64,000 nucleotides of DNA from Parafilimonas sp. (lineage in GTDB: Bacteria > Bacteroidota > Bacteroidia > Chitinophagales > Chitinophagaceae), in assembly GCA_017856455.1 (NCBI GenBank), contig JAFMEZ010000004.1, positions 1 through 64,000 of the forward strand, read 5' to 3'. Shown piece after piece: positions 34,786 through 44,701 of the stretch. A model generated the notes under the pieces. It saw only the letters and a program-made list of their open reading frames with translations, had not been told where the DNA came from and searched no databases. Each line of letters opens with the position of its first letter. Positions within the stretch are counted from its first letter, which is position 1. The translations under genes and the position numbers were made by a program.

Positions 34786-36138
34786 TTAATTTTTTGCACT
34801 GCCCTCGATCTTAAATACCCAGGCATGTTCACAAGGCAATTGTTTAGGCCAGTTCAATGTTAGGGTACCTGCTTTTTCATCATGTTCATGATGAATTGCT
34901 TTTTTTACACCAAGCATTTTTACTTTAGTTCCAGGTGCAGCTGAAATATTTTTTAACACTACCGGTCCATCTGCCTTTTTGGTAACAATGGCATAAATAT
35001 ATTTGCCATCACCGCTCACAGTATATTTTACATGATCACCCTCTTTGAATTTCTTTAAACTCTTTGTGGCATAAATTGCTTCTCCATTTATTTTCAACCA
35101 GTTCCCCATATCTTTTAATCTGTCAACTGAGGGAGCAGGAATCAGCCCTTCAGCAGTGGGGCCTACATTCAATAGATAATTTCCCCCCTTTGCTGCTATG
35201 TCAACCAAATTATGAATCAATGTTTCACTTGATTTCCAGTTGTTATCATTCTTTTTGAATCCCCATGTATCATTCATCGTCATGCAACTCTCCCAATCTG
35301 TATCAGAAGTTCCCTCCAAAATTTCCTGTTCTGGTGTACCAAAATCACCTGCAGCATCTTGATATTTATTCATGCCTTGCATTCCAGCTCTACCCTTCCC
35401 GACCCTGTTATTAATGATCAAATCAGGCTTTAAATTTCTCAGATAATTATAAAGGTCCTTCCCCTGATCTTCTGTCCATTCCGGTATCCATTCTCCATCG
35501 AACCATAGTACAGCAGGATCATATTTCTCAATCAATTCTTTTAATTGTGGTTTCAAATACTCTTCACGATATTTTGCAAAATTTGGATTTGCTGAATGCT
35601 GATGTGTGTAATCCTTTTTGCTCTCTGCATCTGGATGATGCCAGTCCATAATAGAGTGATAGAAACACATTTTTATATTCGCCTCTTTACAAGCATCAGA
35701 AAGTTCCTTAAGAATATCTCTTTTGAAAGGTGATGCATCCATGATATCATAATTAGTCACCTTGCTATCCCATATACAAAAACCATCATGATGCTTGGAA
35801 GTGATAACGATATATTTGATGCCTGCTTTTTTTGCTACAGCAACCCACTCCTTCGCATTGAATTGAGTTGGGTTAAACTGTTGAACAAACTTTTCATATT
35901 CTGGGATGGGAATATTTGCAGAATGCATGATCCATTCTCCTATACGACCATACTCTTTTCCATTGTATGAACCAGCTGGAACGGCATAAGCTCCCCAATG
36001 AATAAACATGCCAAACGTTGCATCTCTCCACCACTCCATCCGGGTGTCACGATCTTGTTTGGTTTCAGTTAGATAATTTTTTTGTGCATTGACAGAAATA
36101 AGCATCAAGACGCACAAGAATGAAAATAGAAATTTCAT
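34786..36138 (-). CDS. Alpha-L-fucosidase, GH29 family
   Basis: Signal peptide; DATFGMFIHWGAYAVPAG, KYIVITSKHHDGFCIWDSK, VLWFDGEW nucleophile motif. Confidence 0.94.
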   Translation of the reverse strand: MKFLFSFLCVLMLISVNAQKNYLTETKQDRDTRMEWWRDATFGMFIHWGAYAVPAGSYNGKEYGRIGEWIMHSANIPIPEYEKFVQQFNPTQFNAKEWVAVAKKAGIKYIVITSKHHDGFCIWDSKVTNYDIMDASPFKRDILKELSDACKEANIKMCFYHSIMDWHHPDAESKKDYTHQHSANPNFAKYREEYLKPQLKELIEKYDPAVLWFDGEWIPEWTEDQGKDLYNYLRNLKPDLIINNRVGKGRAGMQGMNKYQDAAGDFGTPEQEILEGTSDTDWESCMTMNDTWGFKKNDNNWKSSETLIHNLVDIAAKGGNYLLNVGPTAEGLIPAPSVDRLKDMGNWLKINGEAIYATKSLKKFKEGDHVKYTVSGDGKYIYAIVTKKADGPVVLKNISAAPGTKVKMLGVKKAIHHEHDEKAGTLTLNWPKQLPCEHAWVFKIEGSAKN

Positions 36139-36156
36139 GATGACAAGTTTATATGA

Positions 36157-37623
36157 TTAAAATTCAGATTTTTTATAAAACCCAATTTCACTAAAAGTTA
36201 CACAAACTGGAGATGACACTATATTAATTTTTACTTTTTTTGATTTCACAGGACTATCCAAAAGTATTATTCTGGCAGCACCAATAGAAGTTGCAGTTGC
36301 TATTTTTTTCCATGCACCATTCTCAAATGATGCTATTTCTACTGACTCAATTCTTTGTCCAAGTGGTATAAACTCTCTCAATCTGATGAGATCAAATTCA
36401 ACTTCTTCTTTCCAATCAAATACTATTTCCGGGAGATGATCATCATCTTTTGAAGCCCAGTAAGACTTGGTATTGTCATCGACTAAATTTTTTGTCGAAA
36501 AAGCCTTCCCCCTTGTTTGCTTGGAAGTTATTGTTGCGAGCTCGGCCATATTTTTTTTGAATGATGCATTTAATATTTTCCCAAATCCTTCAAGCGACCT
36601 AACATCTTCCTCTGCCAGTAGCCCTCTTGTATCAGGTGCAATACCCAAGTCTAATGCACCACCTCTTCCTACACTTTTCAAATACAAATCAAATAATTGA
36701 GCAGGTGATTTTACTTTGTCTTTTTCTTCTGGATGATAAAACCATCCTTTACGCAAAGGCACATCACATTCTGCCGGCACCCAATTATTACCGTTGCGTG
36801 TGCCAAATGGATTTTGTTTATCGTCTAACTGTCCGGGTACTGTTTTGCTCTCTCCTTCTGCAGGAACAGGCGTAAATGTTGCCCATGATGTTTCTGCTGC
36901 GAAGCCTCTCTCATTGCCAACCCATCGTACATCCCATCCGATATCGCTAAAGATATTTGCATTGGGTTGCATTTTTCTTGTGATGGCCCATGTTGTATCC
37001 CATCCATAGTAAGTAGCTCGATCTATTTTTTTGGTTGTTCTTGCACCACCATAATATCCATCTCCTCCATTTGCTCCATCATGCCACGACATGAATAATT
37101 CACCATAGTTTGTGTAGAGTTCTTTTAATTGTGTCCTGTATGCATCAACATAAGCAGGTGTTCCATAAACAGGATTATTTCGATCCCATGGTGAACAATA
37201 CACCCCAAATTTTAGTCCATATTTTCTGCATGCCTGTTCAACCTCTTTTACCAAATCACCTTTACCATTACGAAATGGCGATGCAGTGATATTGTAATTC
37301 GTAGTTTGTGTTGGCCATAAGGCAAACCCGTCGTGATGTTTCGCAACAAGAATAACCCCTTTCAATCCACCTGCCTTCAAAGCTGTTACAATTTTCTCTG
37401 CATCAAATTGAGTAGGATTAAAAATTTTAGGATCTGCGTCACCATAACCCCATTCTTTATTTTCGAATGTTGTTGGCGTAAAATGAATCAAACCATAAAC
37501 CTCTGTTTCATGCCATTTTAGTTGTCGATCTGATGGCAAAGCACCAAATGGTTTTGGTGCAGGTTGAGCAACGGAAGTCATTGAAAACAAAAGCGTGGAA
37601 ATGATAGCGAATAGAATCTTCAT
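36157..37623 (-). CDS. Alpha-L-fucosidase, GH29 family (subfamily B-like)
   Basis: Signal peptide; LKGVILVAKHHDGFALWPT, LFMSWHDGANGGDGYYGG, C-terminal discoidin-like region. Confidence 0.92.
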   Translation of the reverse strand: MKILFAIISTLLFSMTSVAQPAPKPFGALPSDRQLKWHETEVYGLIHFTPTTFENKEWGYGDADPKIFNPTQFDAEKIVTALKAGGLKGVILVAKHHDGFALWPTQTTNYNITASPFRNGKGDLVKEVEQACRKYGLKFGVYCSPWDRNNPVYGTPAYVDAYRTQLKELYTNYGELFMSWHDGANGGDGYYGGARTTKKIDRATYYGWDTTWAITRKMQPNANIFSDIGWDVRWVGNERGFAAETSWATFTPVPAEGESKTVPGQLDDKQNPFGTRNGNNWVPAECDVPLRKGWFYHPEEKDKVKSPAQLFDLYLKSVGRGGALDLGIAPDTRGLLAEEDVRSLEGFGKILNASFKKNMAELATITSKQTRGKAFSTKNLVDDNTKSYWASKDDDHLPEIVFDWKEEVEFDLIRLREFIPLGQRIESVEIASFENGAWKKIATATSIGAARIILLDSPVKSKKVKINIVSSPVCVTFSEIGFYKKSEF

Positions 37624-38459
37624 TGCTTATTTTTTTTCACTGTATTAATTAAGGTACCAATACCATCAATTGAAATTTCAACCCGATCATTTACCTGCAA
37701 GGTAAATTCATCCGGAGGAACAATGCCGGTACCTGTCATCAGCATCACGCCCATAGGAAAACTAGTTTCCAAGAAAAGGAATGAAGCCAATTCATTTAAA
37801 TTTCTTTTCATTTTTGAAAGAGCTGTCACTCCATCAAAAACAAGTTGATCCGCTCTATATATTTTTAATTGTATACTGGATGCAAGATCAATGGGATTTT
37901 CAGGAACAAAAAGACATGGACCTAATGCAGCGCTCCGATCATATACTTTGGCTTGCGCAAGATAAAGTGGATTTTCTCCTTCAATGCTTCTTGAACTCAT
38001 GTCGTTCCCAACTGTATACCCTTCAATTGTTCCTTCACTTGATATAAACAAAGTCAATTCAGGCTCTGGCACATCCCAGGAAGAATCATTACGAATATGA
38101 ACAGCATGTTGATGACCGGCTATTCTTGAAGGCAATGCCTTAAAAAAAAGTTCAGGTCTCTGTGCATCATAAACTTTATCATAAAAGCTTCCCCCACCAC
38201 TATGAGCAGATTCTTTTTCTCGAGCTTCTTTGCTACGTAAGTAAGTTACACCTGCAGCCCATAATTCTTGTGAACCAACTGGTGCATCAAGTTCATTCGC
38301 AAGATCAACCTGCGTTGTTTTTGAATATTGAGGCAGCTGCCCAATTAAATAATGAAACAAATTTTTATGATTTATTAATGCATCCCAAGGATGATCAGTT
38401 GCATAAAAATTTCCCTCATGCTCTATTAAAACTTTTTCCCCTTTTTTATAAAGTTTCAT
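37620..38459 (-). CDS. FAH-superfamily protein, 2-keto-3-deoxy-sugar-acid dehydratase-like
   Basis: VPEPELTLFISSEGTIEGYTVGNDMSSRSIEGENPLYLAQAKVYDRSAALGPC; resembles FAH-type 2-keto-3-deoxy-D-arabinonate dehydratases. Confidence 0.8.
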   Translation of the reverse strand: MKLYKKGEKVLIEHEGNFYATDHPWDALINHKNLFHYLIGQLPQYSKTTQVDLANELDAPVGSQELWAAGVTYLRSKEAREKESAHSGGGSFYDKVYDAQRPELFFKALPSRIAGHQHAVHIRNDSSWDVPEPELTLFISSEGTIEGYTVGNDMSSRSIEGENPLYLAQAKVYDRSAALGPCLFVPENPIDLASSIQLKIYRADQLVFDGVTALSKMKRNLNELASFLFLETSFPMGVMLMTGTGIVPPDEFTLQVNDRVEISIDGIGTLINTVKKNKQ

Positions 38460-38541: not shown

Positions 38542-39324
38542 ATGGCAGCTGGAAATTTTGAATTGGTGAGTCCTTATGTTATCATCACAGGTGGATCAAG
38601 CGGCATTGGTCTTGCTATGGTAAAAATATTTCATGATCAGGGCGCGATTGTCGATGTGCTTGATGTACAAAAACCATCAGAAGACACGCTAAAGAAATTA
38701 TCCATCAATGATGAAACTGTTGTCTTCCATGAAACAGATATTACCAATAATGCGGCTGTCAAGGAAGTCATTTCATTAATCTCCATCAAAAGAGGAATTG
38801 GCATCTTGATCAATAATGCCGGTATCGCACATATCGGAAATGTGTTGAACACATCTGATGAAGATTTTCAGAAAATTTTTAATGTGAATGTAAAAGGTGC
38901 ATTCAATTGCATTCAGGCGATTATTCCTTTTATGATAGAAATGGGAGAAGGCCTAATTATAAATATGGCTTCTATTGCTGCTACAGTAGGCATCCCTGAC
39001 CGCTTTGCTTACAGCATGAGCAAAGGCGCTATTGTTTCAATGACATTGAGTGTTGCAAAAGATTTTATTAAAAAAGGAATCCGGTGCAACTGCATTTCTC
39101 CGGCAAGGGTGCATACACCTTTTGTTGATGGCTTTCTTGATAAACATTATCCTGGGAAACAAGAAGAAATGTTTGAAAAACTTTCTGCTAGTCAGCCTAT
39201 AGGTAGAATGGCAGAGCCAGAGGAAATTGCACAACTTGCTTTTTACCTTTGCAGCAAGCAGGCATCTTTTATTACCGGTACAGATATACCCATTGACGGA
39301 GGATTTACCAGATTAAACAATTGA
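38542..39324 (+). CDS. SDR oxidoreductase, candidate 2-keto-3-deoxy-L-fuconate dehydrogenase
   Basis: TGGSSGIG cofactor motif, INNAG, YSMSK catalytic motif; placement in fucose locus. Confidence 0.8.
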   Translation: MAAGNFELVSPYVIITGGSSGIGLAMVKIFHDQGAIVDVLDVQKPSEDTLKKLSINDETVVFHETDITNNAAVKEVISLISIKRGIGILINNAGIAHIGNVLNTSDEDFQKIFNVNVKGAFNCIQAIIPFMIEMGEGLIINMASIAATVGIPDRFAYSMSKGAIVSMTLSVAKDFIKKGIRCNCISPARVHTPFVDGFLDKHYPGKQEEMFEKLSASQPIGRMAEPEEIAQLAFYLCSKQASFITGTDIPIDGGFTRLNN

Positions 39325-39327
39325 TAC

Positions 39328-40188
39328 ATGAAAATTTTCAGATTTGATAAATCGGGCAGTGTTGGATTAGGCATGCTTGATGCGAAAGGAAAAAAAATAG
39401 ATATTTCAGGATATTATAATGATTTCAATCGAAGTTTTTTTGAAATGGGTGGAACAACACATTTGTCGGAGTGGCTATTGCTACATGCCAATGAATGTGA
39501 TGAAATAAAAGATGAAGTCACTTTCTTGCCATGCATTGCTGATCCTTCAAAGATCATTTGCGTCGGACTCAATTATGCGAAGCATGCCAAGGAAAGTAAT
39601 ATGGAAGTACCAAAAGAGCCTGTATTGTTTTTCAAGAGTACTTCAGCAATATGTGGACCAAATGATCCAGTTATCATACCTAAAAATTCATTTAAAACAG
39701 ATTGGGAAGTAGAACTAGCAGTAATCATTGGAAAAAAAACAAGCTATGTTGCAGAAGAAAATGCTATGCAACATGTTGCAGGCTATTGTCTGCATAATGA
39801 TTATAGTGAAAGAGCTTTTCAATTGGAGAGAGGCGGACAATGGGTGAAGGGGAAGAGCTGTGATCACTTTGCCCCACTTGGTCCGTATTTTGTTTCAAAA
39901 GACGAAATCCAAGATCCACATGCATTGCACTTATGGCTGGATGTGAATGGAAAGCGCATGCAAGATTCACATACCTCTGACTTAATCTACAAAATTCCTT
40001 TCCTGGTTCATTATATCTCTCAATTCATGACGTTATTACCAGGAGATATTATCAGTACAGGTACACCAGAAGGTGTAGGCATGGGACAAAAACCTGATCC
40101 GATATATTTGAAAGCAGGTGATAAAATTCATTTAGGTATTGAGGGATTAGGGGAACAATTCCAAACAGCCATTGCTCATGCGGATTGA
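39328..40188 (+). CDS. FAH-family hydrolase, candidate 2,4-diketo-3-deoxy-L-fuconate hydrolase
   Basis: KIICVGLNYAKHAKESNMEVPKEPVLFFKST, DWEVELAVIIGK, GDIISTGTPEGVGMG. Confidence 0.85.
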   Translation: MKIFRFDKSGSVGLGMLDAKGKKIDISGYYNDFNRSFFEMGGTTHLSEWLLLHANECDEIKDEVTFLPCIADPSKIICVGLNYAKHAKESNMEVPKEPVLFFKSTSAICGPNDPVIIPKNSFKTDWEVELAVIIGKKTSYVAEENAMQHVAGYCLHNDYSERAFQLERGGQWVKGKSCDHFAPLGPYFVSKDEIQDPHALHLWLDVNGKRMQDSHTSDLIYKIPFLVHYISQFMTLLPGDIISTGTPEGVGMGQKPDPIYLKAGDKIHLGIEGLGEQFQTAIAHAD

Positions 40189-41005
40189 TGCTCATCAACA
40201 TTTTTGGATGTATCATCCAGAAAAACACGGTTGGATCAATGATGAGATGAAACTGATACGTAAGAACTTCACTCCATCTGATCTAAAACCCATATTGGAT
40301 AAACACCTCATCGATGGATCTATTGCAGTGCAGGCCGACGAAACTTTGGAAGAAACTGATTTCCTTTTATCGCTAACTGCAAATAATGATTTTATCAAAG
40401 GAGTCGTAGGATGGATCGATTTGAAAAATCCATCCATTGAAGATCAACTAACAAAGTATAAAGAATATAAAAAACTTCTAGGATTCAGGTGCATCATGCA
40501 AGGACAACCAGATGAATTATACCTAAACAATGAAATATTCATCAATAATGTTGCATCACTATCCATTTATAAGTATACATATGACCTGCTGATTTATCAT
40601 CACCAACTACCAAGTTTGCTTAAATTCACAGAGAAACTTCCAGACAATCGATTCATTCTTGATCACATTGGCAAGCCAAACATAAAAGAGAAGAACATTA
40701 AAGCATGGAAGGAAAATATCATCCAATTGGCAAAACATCCAGGAATCTATTGTAAATTAAGTGGGATGATTACCGAAGCAGACTATAACAATTGGAGTTA
40801 TGAGAATATTGTTCCCTACATGGATGTTGTTGCTGAAGCGTTTGGGCCAAGTAGATTATGCTTTGGATCAGACTGGCCAGTTTGCTTGGTTGCAGGTAAT
40901 TATGATCGGATGATTGAAGTAGTAAAAAAATGGACAATGCAATTCACAAAAGAAGAATACAACCAGATTTTTGGCTTAAATGCATGCAAATTTTACAACA
41001 TTTAA
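40178..41005 (+). CDS. Amidohydrolase family protein, candidate L-fuconolactonase
   Basis: MRIDAHQHFWMY metal-binding N-terminus, RFILDHIGKPNIK, CFGSDWPVC; ATG at 40178 preferred. Confidence 0.85.
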   Translation: MRIDAHQHFWMYHPEKHGWINDEMKLIRKNFTPSDLKPILDKHLIDGSIAVQADETLEETDFLLSLTANNDFIKGVVGWIDLKNPSIEDQLTKYKEYKKLLGFRCIMQGQPDELYLNNEIFINNVASLSIYKYTYDLLIYHHQLPSLLKFTEKLPDNRFILDHIGKPNIKEKNIKAWKENIIQLAKHPGIYCKLSGMITEADYNNWSYENIVPYMDVVAEAFGPSRLCFGSDWPVCLVAGNYDRMIEVVKKWTMQFTKEEYNQIFGLNACKFYNI

Positions 41006-41006
41006 T

Positions 41007-41780
41007 ATGGATCTAGCATTAACAGATAAAATAATTATCGTTACAGGTGGTGCAAAAGGTATTGGTGAAGGCATTACCAGATTACTTGCAAAAGAAGGTG
41101 CCTTCCCAATTATAATCGGCAGAAACCAGGATGATAATATTGCGCTCTTGAAAGAAATTGGCACTGGCTATCAAGTTACAGCAGAGCTTGGAAATCCCAC
41201 TGCCTGTAAAACAGCTGTAGAAGAAATCATTAAAAAATTCAATCGCATTGATGGCGTAATAAATAATGCAGGAATCAATGATGGCGTTTCGCTTGAGAAA
41301 GGAACATACGAGGGTTTCATTCAATCTTTGCATAACAATGTAGTACATTATTACTTGATTGTACAGGCAGCACTACCCTCTCTCATTCAATCCAAGGGAT
41401 CTATTGTTAACATCAGCTCCAAAGTTGCGGAAACAGGACAAGGCGGAACTTCAGGATATGCTGCAGCAAATGGAGCAAGAAACGCATTAACGAGAGAATG
41501 GGCAGTGGAACTTTTAAAATATGGTATTCGTGTAAACGCAGTCATTGTTTCCGAATGCTATACTCCGCTGTATGATAAATGGATAAAAACACTTGAGCAT
41601 CCGGAAGAAACACTTCAAAAGATTACTGCAAGAATTCCTCTTGAAAAAAGAATGACAACATCTGAAGAGATTGCCAACACCGCTGTGTTTCTTCTCTCTA
41701 ATAAATCTTCTCATACTACCGGACAACTGATACATGTTGACGGAGGATATGTACATCTGGATAGAGCCGCACTATCATAA
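41007..41780 (+). CDS. SDR oxidoreductase, candidate L-fucose dehydrogenase (YAAAN in place of YxxxK)
   Basis: MDLALTDKIIIVTGGAKGIG, INNAGINDG, NISSKVAETGQGGTSGYAAANGARNALTREWAVEL, HTTGQLIHVDGGYVHLDRA. Confidence 0.83.
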   Translation: MDLALTDKIIIVTGGAKGIGEGITRLLAKEGAFPIIIGRNQDDNIALLKEIGTGYQVTAELGNPTACKTAVEEIIKKFNRIDGVINNAGINDGVSLEKGTYEGFIQSLHNNVVHYYLIVQAALPSLIQSKGSIVNISSKVAETGQGGTSGYAAANGARNALTREWAVELLKYGIRVNAVIVSECYTPLYDKWIKTLEHPEETLQKITARIPLEKRMTTSEEIANTAVFLLSNKSSHTTGQLIHVDGGYVHLDRAALS

Positions 41781-41790
41781 ATCAAAGAAA

Positions 41791-43044
41791 ATGACCAAAA
41801 CTAACGCCAATTACAAACTGCCTTTTATTTTGGTTTCAACCCTGTTTTTTCTTTGGGGTATTGCCAATAATTTAAATGGAATTTTAATCCCTCATTTGAG
41901 AAAAGCATTGCAGTTAACCAATATGCAATCAACATTTGTAGACACTGCAGTATATGTTGCTTATTTTCTTTCTGCAATTCCAGCTGGACTCATTTTAAAA
42001 AAATTCGGATACAAGAAAGGAATCATTACCGGACTGATAGTATTCAGCATTGGTGCATTCATGTTTATACCAGCTGCAAACCTCAGGGCTTACAATATTT
42101 TTCTTTTTGGCTTATTCGTTATCGGATGCGGACTCACCATTTTGGAGACAGCCGCAAATCCATATGCTTCCAAATTGGGCGACCCAGATACAGCAACAGC
42201 GAGATTAACACTGGCCCAGTCTTTCAATGGATTGGCAGTTTTTATTGCACCAGTAATTGGCACAATTTTTATTCTATCGGGCAAAGAATATTCACCAGAT
42301 GAACTTGCAGCCATGAGTGAGATTGATAAACTTGCTTATTTGAATAGCGAAGCAGCATCTGTTAAGACGCCTTATCTGCTGCTTGGCATATTTCTTCTTG
42401 CAATTGCAATATTATTTCTGGTAAATAAGTTTCCAGAGTTGAAAGAGGAGGAAGGAGCTGCAGAAGAAGGAAGCTTATCTAGTGCCATTAAAAATAAACA
42501 TTTAGTATGGGCAGTTATTGCTCAATTCTTCTATGTTGGCGCACAGGTATGCGTTACGAGCTTCTTCATCAGAGCAGCAATTACAGGTGGAGGTGTTGAT
42601 GAAAAAACTGCAGGTTATTACCTAAGTGTTTATGGCATTCTTTTCATGACCGGTAGATTTGCAGGGTCAGCAATCATGCGTTTTATTGCACCTCAAAAAT
42701 TACTTTCGCTATACGCAGTGATTTGTATCTTTCTCAGTTTTATTGCCATCAAAACTGATGGACAATATGTTGTAATTGCATTAGGTGGACTCGGATTTTT
42801 CATGTCTATCATGTTCCCTACAATTTTTGCACTTGGCATAGCTGGATTAAAATCGAATACAAAGCCTGCCTCTTCTTTGCTTGTTATGTCTATTATAGGA
42901 GGCGCAATTTTCCCGGTAATCATGGGAAATATCATTGATCAGTTTGGGGATGATATTCAAATAGGATACATTGTTCCAATGATATGTTATGTATTTGTAT
43001 TGTATTTTGGAATCAAAGGATATAAACCGTCTACTCAACCATGA
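41791..43044 (+). CDS. fucP: L-fucose:H+ symporter FucP family permease
   Basis: TLFFLWGIANNLNGILIPHLRKAL, GCGLTILETAANPYASKLGDP; ATG at 41791 preferred over ORF-track start. Confidence 0.92.
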   Translation: MTKTNANYKLPFILVSTLFFLWGIANNLNGILIPHLRKALQLTNMQSTFVDTAVYVAYFLSAIPAGLILKKFGYKKGIITGLIVFSIGAFMFIPAANLRAYNIFLFGLFVIGCGLTILETAANPYASKLGDPDTATARLTLAQSFNGLAVFIAPVIGTIFILSGKEYSPDELAAMSEIDKLAYLNSEAASVKTPYLLLGIFLLAIAILFLVNKFPELKEEEGAAEEGSLSSAIKNKHLVWAVIAQFFYVGAQVCVTSFFIRAAITGGGVDEKTAGYYLSVYGILFMTGRFAGSAIMRFIAPQKLLSLYAVICIFLSFIAIKTDGQYVVIALGGLGFFMSIMFPTIFALGIAGLKSNTKPASSLLVMSIIGGAIFPVIMGNIIDQFGDDIQIGYIVPMICYVFVLYFGIKGYKPSTQP

Positions 43045-43373
43045 AAACATTTTGCCTAGCATTAGATCTTAAAAACGACCCTGCATTGATTGATGCATAC
43101 GAAGCACATCACAGAGAAGTTTGGCCTGAAATTATTGCTTCAATTAAAGACAGTGGAATAGATAATATGAAAATTTATCGCACAGGTAATCGCCTTTTCA
43201 TGATTATTCATGCAAATGACCACTTCAGCTTTGAAACAAAAAGTCAAATGGACAGTGAAAACCCTATTGTTGAAAAATGGGAAACACTAATGGATCAGTA
43301 TCAGCAAAGATTACCATGGGCTGCACCAGGTGTAAAATGGGTGCTCATGGATGAAATTTTTTCACTTGATTAA
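43041..43373 (+). CDS. L-rhamnose/L-fucose mutarotase family protein (RhaM-like)
   Basis: CLALDLKNDPALIDAYEAHHREVWPEIIASIKDSGIDNMKIYRTGNRLFMI. Confidence 0.9.
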   Translation: MKTFCLALDLKNDPALIDAYEAHHREVWPEIIASIKDSGIDNMKIYRTGNRLFMIIHANDHFSFETKSQMDSENPIVEKWETLMDQYQQRLPWAAPGVKWVLMDEIFSLD

Positions 43374-44701
43374 TTGAATCCACCATGACCAGCATACAAT
43401 TTAACTGGTCCTTCTAATTTCAGTTCCAGTACTGTCATATATGGATCAACCTGGCCTACAGGTACATCAATAAAAACCAAACCTGGAACAGGACTCCAAG
43501 AAATTTTGCCAACAACCTTATGGTTTAGATTAACCTCTTTGCCTACAACTTTAATCTCTTTGATTTTATTTACCAATCCTTTTATCATGATTGGTCCACT
43601 TGTTTGTGCCTGCAAAAACAAGTACAATGAACTTGAGTCTTTTGACAATGTGGTTGGTCCATAGAAATGTCCTTTAGGAATACCAGCTATCGTTCCAAAG
43701 ATTGCTCTGTTGTGCTTTTTATTCCACTTTCCCAGTTCATTCAAAACATTTTTCTGTTCCTCAGGAATAGTTCCATCTTCTTTTGGTCCAATATCCAATA
43801 ATAAGTTCCCACCATTGCCAACAACATCTGCAAATAATGTTATTATTTCATTCGGCTTTTTCCAGTTGGTATCTCTGAATTGAAATCCCCAGTTGTTGTT
43901 GATGGTCATGCAAAGTTCCCACCAATTGTACGCGGGCTTTGAAACAGGAATATTTTGTTCTGGGGTTACATAATCTCCATAACCGGCAAGTCGTCCATTG
44001 ATGATAGCATTTGGATTTTTAGCCAGAATATTGCTTCGAACCTTAATGCTCTCCCATTCATCAGCATTATGCTCCCAGTCGCCATCAAACCAAAAAAGAT
44101 CTGGATTATATAGTTCTGAAATTTCATTGATCTGAGACTGGAAAAACTTTTTAAAATGATCCCAACGCGCAGGCTGATCTTTTAATTTATACCTGACAGA
44201 ATCTTTTCTGAACTGATCATAATCATTTCGACTCCAATCTATCAGGGAAAAATATGTGCCCACCTTCAGTTGACGTTTTCTCAATTCATCAAAGAAAGGT
44301 TTAAGCAAATCCTTTTTGGCTGGTGTATTTCTAACAACATTATAATGATCCTCTTTGGTATTCCATAATGCAACGCCATCATGATGTTTGGTTGTCATCA
44401 CTGCATATTTTGCACCTGACTGTTGCACCAAATCCGCCCATTCTGCAGGATTGTACTTACTTGCAGTAAATCCGTTCAATTGACTCATGTATTCTTTATA
44501 GGGAATTAGATTATTATAAAAACTCCAACTTTCATCAACACCTTTCACAGCATAAATTCCCCAATGAATAAAAATTCCAAGTTTAGCTTCCTGAAACCAT
44601 TGCATTTTGGCTTGAATGCTTTCAGGTGAAATTTTTTCCTGTGCGTTAGATTGATTTACAAAAAGAATACTGGCGACGATAATTGAAATGAATATTCTCA
44701 T
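43370..44701 (-). CDS. Alpha-L-fucosidase, GH29 family
   Basis: Signal peptide; AKLGIFIHWGIYAVKG, KYAVMTTKHHDGVALWN, LFWFDGDWEHNADEW. Confidence 0.93.
   Translation of the reverse strand: MRIFISIIVASILFVNQSNAQEKISPESIQAKMQWFQEAKLGIFIHWGIYAVKGVDESWSFYNNLIPYKEYMSQLNGFTASKYNPAEWADLVQQSGAKYAVMTTKHHDGVALWNTKEDHYNVVRNTPAKKDLLKPFFDELRKRQLKVGTYFSLIDWSRNDYDQFRKDSVRYKLKDQPARWDHFKKFFQSQINEISELYNPDLFWFDGDWEHNADEWESIKVRSNILAKNPNAIINGRLAGYGDYVTPEQNIPVSKPAYNWWELCMTINNNWGFQFRDTNWKKPNEIITLFADVVGNGGNLLLDIGPKEDGTIPEEQKNVLNELGKWNKKHNRAIFGTIAGIPKGHFYGPTTLSKDSSSLYLFLQAQTSGPIMIKGLVNKIKEIKVVGKEVNLNHKVVGKISWSPVPGLVFIDVPVGQVDPYMTVLELKLEGPVKLYAGHGGFN

Follow-up and report, generated by a model that had tools for sequence, protein, structure and literature searches.

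A predicted L-fucose dehydrogenase of Bacteroidota with a probable YxxxN-xx-R centre in place of YxxxK

The fucose locus and its predicted dehydrogenase with Asn at the Lys site

The window, a stretch of 64,000 nucleotides from Parafilimonas sp. (contig JAFMEZ010000004.1), contains at 41007..41780 on the forward strand a gene predicted to encode an L-fucose 1-dehydrogenase (FucDH) of 257 amino acid residues. The listed open reading frame spans 40980-41780, and the start was set to the ATG at 41007 by alignment to Burkholderia multivorans FucDH (4gkb), with whose N-terminal MDLNLQDK the MDLALTDK of the window protein is collinear. A previous sequence-only reading had predicted an L-fucose dehydrogenase here, and the protein indeed scored above the cut-off of the NCBIfam family NF052481 (FucosDh; 396.6 bits over residues 1-254, against 300). 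Its nearest PDB sequences, B. multivorans FucDH (4gkb) and Campylobacter jejuni FucX (6drr), both have YxxxK. The AlphaFold2 model, obtained with an alignment of 37 sequences comprising the window protein and its relatives, had a pLDDT of 91.1 and placed helix F at residues 149-168, and the top Foldseek matches were 4gkb, 6drr, 4glo, and 6ds1 (an NADP+ complex). The fold is thus predicted to be intact.

With the start at 41007, the Tyr and Asn of the motif are residues 151 and 155. The codons TAT GCT GCA GCA AAT at 41457..41471 (forward strand) encode Y151-A-A-A-N155, in which Asn replaces the active-site Lys, exactly as the sequence-only reading had given it in bases and translation. That reading had also described the Gly-rich motif, NNAG, Ser, and Tyr as retained, and among the classical SDR motifs TGGAKGIG, NNAG (86-89), Asn111, Ser138, and Tyr151 are all intact. 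Family members with Asn or Lys at position 155 are hereafter called Asn-types and Lys-types. The 14 SDR-family loci detected in the genome of the window have Lys at this position in 12 cases, Arg in one, and Asn solely at the window gene. No second FucDH-like SDR was found in this genome, where the runner-up had 35% identity. By alignment, two of the other SDR loci deviate in their own ways, with Val at the Tyr site in L201 (G000:C84:7884-8381) and Ser and Arg at the Tyr and Lys sites, respectively, in L203 (G000:C58:10139-10861).

The gene lies among fucose genes on the same strand. Upstream are an SDR with YSMSK, probably a 2-keto-3-deoxy-L-fuconate 4-dehydrogenase (38542..39324; assigned from SDR families and an operon position as in Pantoea), an FAH-family hydrolase, probably a 2,4-diketo-3-deoxy-L-fuconate hydrolase (39328..40188; PF01557, and NF053535 with 341.6 bits, under the cut-off of 500), and an L-fucono-1,5-lactonase-like amidohydrolase (40181..41005; PF04909, and NF052480 with 270 bits, under the cut-off of 400). 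Downstream are the L-fucose:H+ symporter FucP (41782..43044; TIGR00885 with 355.9 bits, cut-off 280.4) and an L-fucose/L-rhamnose mutarotase of the RhaM family (43041..43373; PF05336). A GH29-like alpha-L-fucosidase on the reverse strand (36157..37623), named from sequence reading without a profile match, is kept beside the operon in relatives, and two further fucosidase-like open reading frames are located at 34786-36138 and 43370-44701. An FAH-family-like protein at 37620-38459 (reverse strand), divergent from the fucose operon, showed weak GguC/AraD1 similarity and is kept in some relatives.

The sequence-only reading had placed the gene within an intact operon, which is borne out by these neighbours: the operon with FucP, mutarotase, lactonase, 2-keto-3-deoxy-L-fuconate dehydrogenase, and FAH hydrolase is conserved through the genus. 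Its gene order agrees with that of Pantoea and Duffyella, and its gene set fits the non-phosphorylating L-fucose route of PMC11199699. The operon has no enolase-type fuconate dehydratase, and most genomes of the genus likewise lack this enzyme. Several Asn-type operons encode a UxaA-like protein of about 545 residues (L046:4838-6472), similar to the galactarate dehydratase of NCBIfam under the cut-off, and such a protein was also seen in the fucose operons at L042:1392-3092 and L149:2768-4393. A match to it, in most cases strong, was found in 21 of the 23 searched genomes of the genus; that in the window genome (G000:C97:24749-26083) covered residues 1-428 of 545 and was 70% identical. According to a title cited in PMC11199699, the altronate dehydratase family (UxaA) has been reported for L-fuconate, and the UxaA-like protein probably serves as L-fuconate dehydratase instead of the enolase-type enzyme. 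The idea that the Asn-type SDR itself is the missing dehydratase was dropped because the UxaA-like protein accounts for the gap. A Zn-dependent dehydrogenase (L159:3797-4813), which reached no NCBIfam cut-off, recurs in both Asn- and Lys-type fucose operons of Bacteroidota. Rfam and promoter scans yielded nothing bearing on the Asn-type question.

Distribution of the Asn-type and its co-varying residues

Among 164 aligned distinct family members, position 155 was Asn in 128 and Lys in 36, the latter count including the human outgroup. The first alignment had comprised 131 Asn and 8 Lys sequences, and the addition of loci gave the 128 distinct Asn-types and 36 Lys-types used here. The Asn-types belong to Chitinophagales, Cytophagales, Sphingobacteriales, and Flavobacteriales and are essentially all from Bacteroidota. 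The Lys-types include those of Burkholderia, Pantoea, Rahnella, Paracoccus, Sphingomonas, Granulicella, Campylobacter (FucX), and some Bacteroidota, with Proteobacteria sampled through plasmid and megaplasmid records. In the closest relatives of the window gene, the codon at the same site is AAT or AAC. The sequence-only reading had asked whether Asn is fixed in a clade or whether almost all homologues carry Lys; Asn proved to be fixed in a broad Bacteroidota group. Sequencing error and recent decay are ruled out by the 128 distinct homologues with Asn and by dN/dS values of 0.03-0.06, and the earlier judgement that decay is unlikely, which had rested on the intact operon, is strengthened accordingly. 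One Asn-type (L108, CAJCIQ010000112.1) has Bacteroidota-like neighbours and a contig title of Beijerinckiaceae, which may reflect horizontal transfer or a mislabelled assembly.

In trees constructed without columns 155 and 158, the Asn-types grouped with one Lys subclade (L141, L143, L144, L153, and L155), which was placed beside or inside them. The free trees require two changes at Lys/Asn, and a single origin of Asn was not rejected (AU p = 0.358).

Asn155 is strictly accompanied by other residues, all encoded on the forward strand of the window. Arg158 (codon AGA, 41478..41480), three residues past Asn155 on the same helix face, was found in 128 of 128 Asn-types and in none of the Lys-types, which have Gln, Val, Ile, or Met there. 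Val181 (41547..41549), which stands in place of Pro in the motif that follows strand F, close to the nicotinamide, was likewise present in all 128 Asn-types, and the Lys-types have Pro (27), Ile (7), or Val (1). Position 142 (Glu in the window protein, 41430..41432), four residues past the catalytic Ser138, is Glu or Asp in 126 of the 128 Asn-types and mostly Leu, Val, or Ile in Lys-types. In the stretch from His109 to Asn111 (41331..41339), His109 is specific to Asn-types (125/128) and Asn111 is the retained tetrad Asn. Asn-types are also set apart from Lys-types at N159 and C/S/A184, and more weakly at L241, H243, N44, and Y101. With a helix turning 100 degrees at each residue, positions 151, 155, 158, and 162 fall on one face.

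Neither Asn without Arg158 nor Lys with Arg158 occurred among the aligned sequences. Searches of 325 genomes of the class with degenerate DNA patterns detected Asn with Arg in 19, and neither Lys with Arg nor Asn with another residue at 158 in any; these patterns require a GQGxTS context and most of the matching genomes were already represented among the aligned sequences, so that the search should be taken as a check rather than as independent sampling. Judged from the aligned sequences, the change from Lys to Asn involves a whole package of residues that vary together and not a single substitution. Parts of this package may predate the change, because N159 is already present in the Lys-types L138, L145, and L149, the last two of which also have D/E142. 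The co-variation represents one or two evolutionary events and is therefore not statistically independent proof of compensation. Lys139, encoded with Ser138 at 41418..41423, is invariant across the bacterial FucDH family, Lys-types included, and was therefore ruled out as a compensating gain; it may be permissive for the loss of Lys155.

Maintenance of the gene and a candidate active site

The dN/dS values between close Asn-types were 0.03-0.06, indicating purifying selection; dS was near saturation for pairs with the window gene, and pairs at a dS of about 0.5-0.6 gave dN/dS of 0.03-0.04. The FucDH family was present in 55 of 396 Bacteroidota genomes and fuconolactonase in 56 of them; 54 had both (Fisher p about 5e-63). 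The lactonase was present in 25 of the 26 genomes whose read copies are Asn-type only; this count leaves aside the window's own genome and a further eight genomes with FucDH in the phylum sample, in which the motif was not read. Separately, one Asn-type copy (L154, G241:C13:271959-272732) has an in-frame TAA, and G241 has a second, intact family copy beside the lactonase. G229 (L122/L141) and G085 (L126/L142) have both types; the lactonase adjoins the Lys-type, and in the loci read the Asn-type has only an AraC-like regulator. Because of this position of the lactonase, the two types may be specialised in these genomes, with the Asn-type there doing something else.

The FucDH-family invariants N91, D92, K139, Q145, E183, Y189, and W192 are kept in both Asn- and Lys-types. 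Six of these invariants (N91, D92, K139, E183, Y189, and W192) are not shared by human HSD17B14, which points to a sugar site unchanged between the types. Lys17 and Arg39, an NADP-type signature, were found in 124 and 125 of the 128 Asn-types, respectively, and the cofactor is therefore probably NADP+.

We infer that the Asn-type is likely an active, probably NADP-dependent L-fucose dehydrogenase in which the YxxxK centre has been rebuilt as YxxxN-xx-R. Against this reading, classical SDRs are usually crippled when the Lys is lost, and open-access papers yielded no biochemical test of an Asn-type enzyme. The textbook Lys lowers the pKa of Tyr, holds the nicotinamide ribose, and joins the proton relay (PMC5039031), and its role is likewise described for a sugar 1-dehydrogenase (PMC12133307). 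As a possible arrangement, which we put forward tentatively, Asn-Ser-Tyr-Asn with Arg158 as electrostatic partner would replace the Lys, in an enzyme that would be the standard L-fucose dehydrogenase across much of Bacteroidota. Tyr151 would still act as the base, deprotonating the C1 hydroxyl of L-fucose as hydride passes to NADP+, and Ser138 would position the sugar hydroxyl. Asn155 could preserve the ribose contact of the Lys, not its charge, and might hold the nicotinamide ribose and/or, together with Asn111, a relay water. The positive charge formerly supplied by Lys155 would come from Arg158, one turn below on the same helix face, which would lower the Tyr pKa and whose guanidinium is perhaps held by Glu142. 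Arg158 is the candidate because it is the sole new invariant basic residue on that face. The sequence-only reading had allowed for an altered mechanism or for another residue taking over; for the latter, co-variation provides a strong candidate.

A credible though somewhat doubtful alternative is that the enzyme is an active L-fucose dehydrogenase in which Arg158 is a structural or interface residue and Asn155 alone, through ribose contacts and an ordered water, suffices. Oxidation of the hemiacetal C1 would then be easy and need less activation of Tyr, and Asn can hydrogen-bond the ribose hydroxyls. The Lys-to-Ala variant of HSD17B14 (6h0m) was solved with NAD bound, so that, in this superfamily neighbourhood, a protein without the Lys can still fold and bind its cofactor. 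Helices 101-129 and 149-168 of the model carry the co-varying H109, N159, and R158, and the matching helices form a dimer interface in SDR tetramers. However, Arg158 in 128 of 128 Asn-types and no Lys-type is a stronger link than an unrelated interface change predicts, and position 158 shares its helix face with 151 and 155.

It is unlikely that the Asn-type no longer catalyses the dehydrogenase reaction and instead serves another L-fucose step, such as dehydration, or as a sensor, with the zinc-type dehydrogenase (L159:3797-4813 family) oxidising the sugar. Genes for the latter adjoin many Asn-type genes, and most genomes of the genus lack the enolase-type dehydratase, but the UxaA-like protein can fill that gap, and the pocket residues and NADP signature are retained. 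The zinc-type enzyme was itself disfavoured as the true fucose oxidase, since it also adjoins Lys-type FucDH (L141-L143) and had no match in some genomes with an Asn-type (G001, G007, and G010). An inactive pseudo-enzyme or a decaying gene kept by the operon, as the lost catalytic residue and the in-frame stop in G241 might suggest, is highly improbable in view of the low dN/dS, the conservation over many Bacteroidota families and orders, and the position of the Asn-type as sole FucDH candidate where the rest of the pathway is complete.

Because Asn and the new Arg are fixed in a large Bacteroidota group among L-fucose genes, the swap probably represents a functional redesign of a classic active site rather than an error or decay. 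The motif YxxxK, whose Lys is taught to be indispensable, serves to define and annotate one of the largest superfamilies of enzymes. More than 100 natural homologues that lack the Lys, keep the rest, and always have the same Arg offer a ready experiment on the role of the Lys, as the package could be swapped between homologues that are about 55% identical and have the same predicted reaction. They also warn that SDRs should not be dismissed as inactive for a missing Lys, and the Asn-type is likely the enzyme with which many soil and freshwater Bacteroidota oxidise L-fucose.

Comparison with known dehydrogenases

B. multivorans FucDH (4gkb, 4glo, and 4gvx), which binds NADP (PMC11293516), is of the same family, length, and fold as the window protein, with about 51% identity, and both have S138-Y151, N111, and the pocket invariants. 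The former has YCASK, Q158, P181, V142, and E109, whereas the latter has YAAAN, R158, V181, E142, and H109. C. jejuni FucX (Cj0485; 6drr and 6ds1), of the same family and pathway role, with an NADP+-bound structure and 45% identity in the fold match, differs in its YASAK, Q158, M159, and P181. Human HSD17B14, the mammalian L-fucose dehydrogenase (PMC11293516), shares the SDR fold, 33% identity, and the reaction predicted for the window protein, but has a Ser141-Tyr154-Lys158 triad, is NAD+-dependent, and does not have Lys139 and other residues that are invariant in bacterial FucDH.

By its full-length NF052481 match and its genomic link to L-fucose genes, the window protein belongs to the FucDH family. 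Of the features of classical SDRs, it has TGxxxGxG, NNAG, a length of about 250 residues, the Rossmann fold, Ser, Tyr, and the tetrad Asn; in place of YxxxK it has YAAAN, and its 128 homologues YxxxN. It shares YxxxN with complex SDRs, the ketoreductase domains of polyketide and fatty acid synthases, in which the motif is often literally YAAAN and the catalytic Lys is shifted to the Asn111 site. Unlike those megasynthase domains, the window protein is a single domain of 257 residues and not part of a multidomain synthase, and the Asn-type FucDH keeps Asn111 and gains Arg158. Position 111 is Asn in 123 and Ser in 5 of the 128 Asn-types, and an exchange of Lys and Asn positions as in polyketide ketoreductases is ruled out, as 111 remains Asn. 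No description of Asn-type SDRs of the FucDH kind was found in open-access papers. YxxxN as such is not new, being, beside YxxxK and YxxMxxxK, one of the three canonical SDR motifs, that of the complex SDRs (PMC3144213). What appears to be new is YxxxN in a free-standing SDR of an otherwise classical family, with Asn111 kept and Arg158 obligatory.
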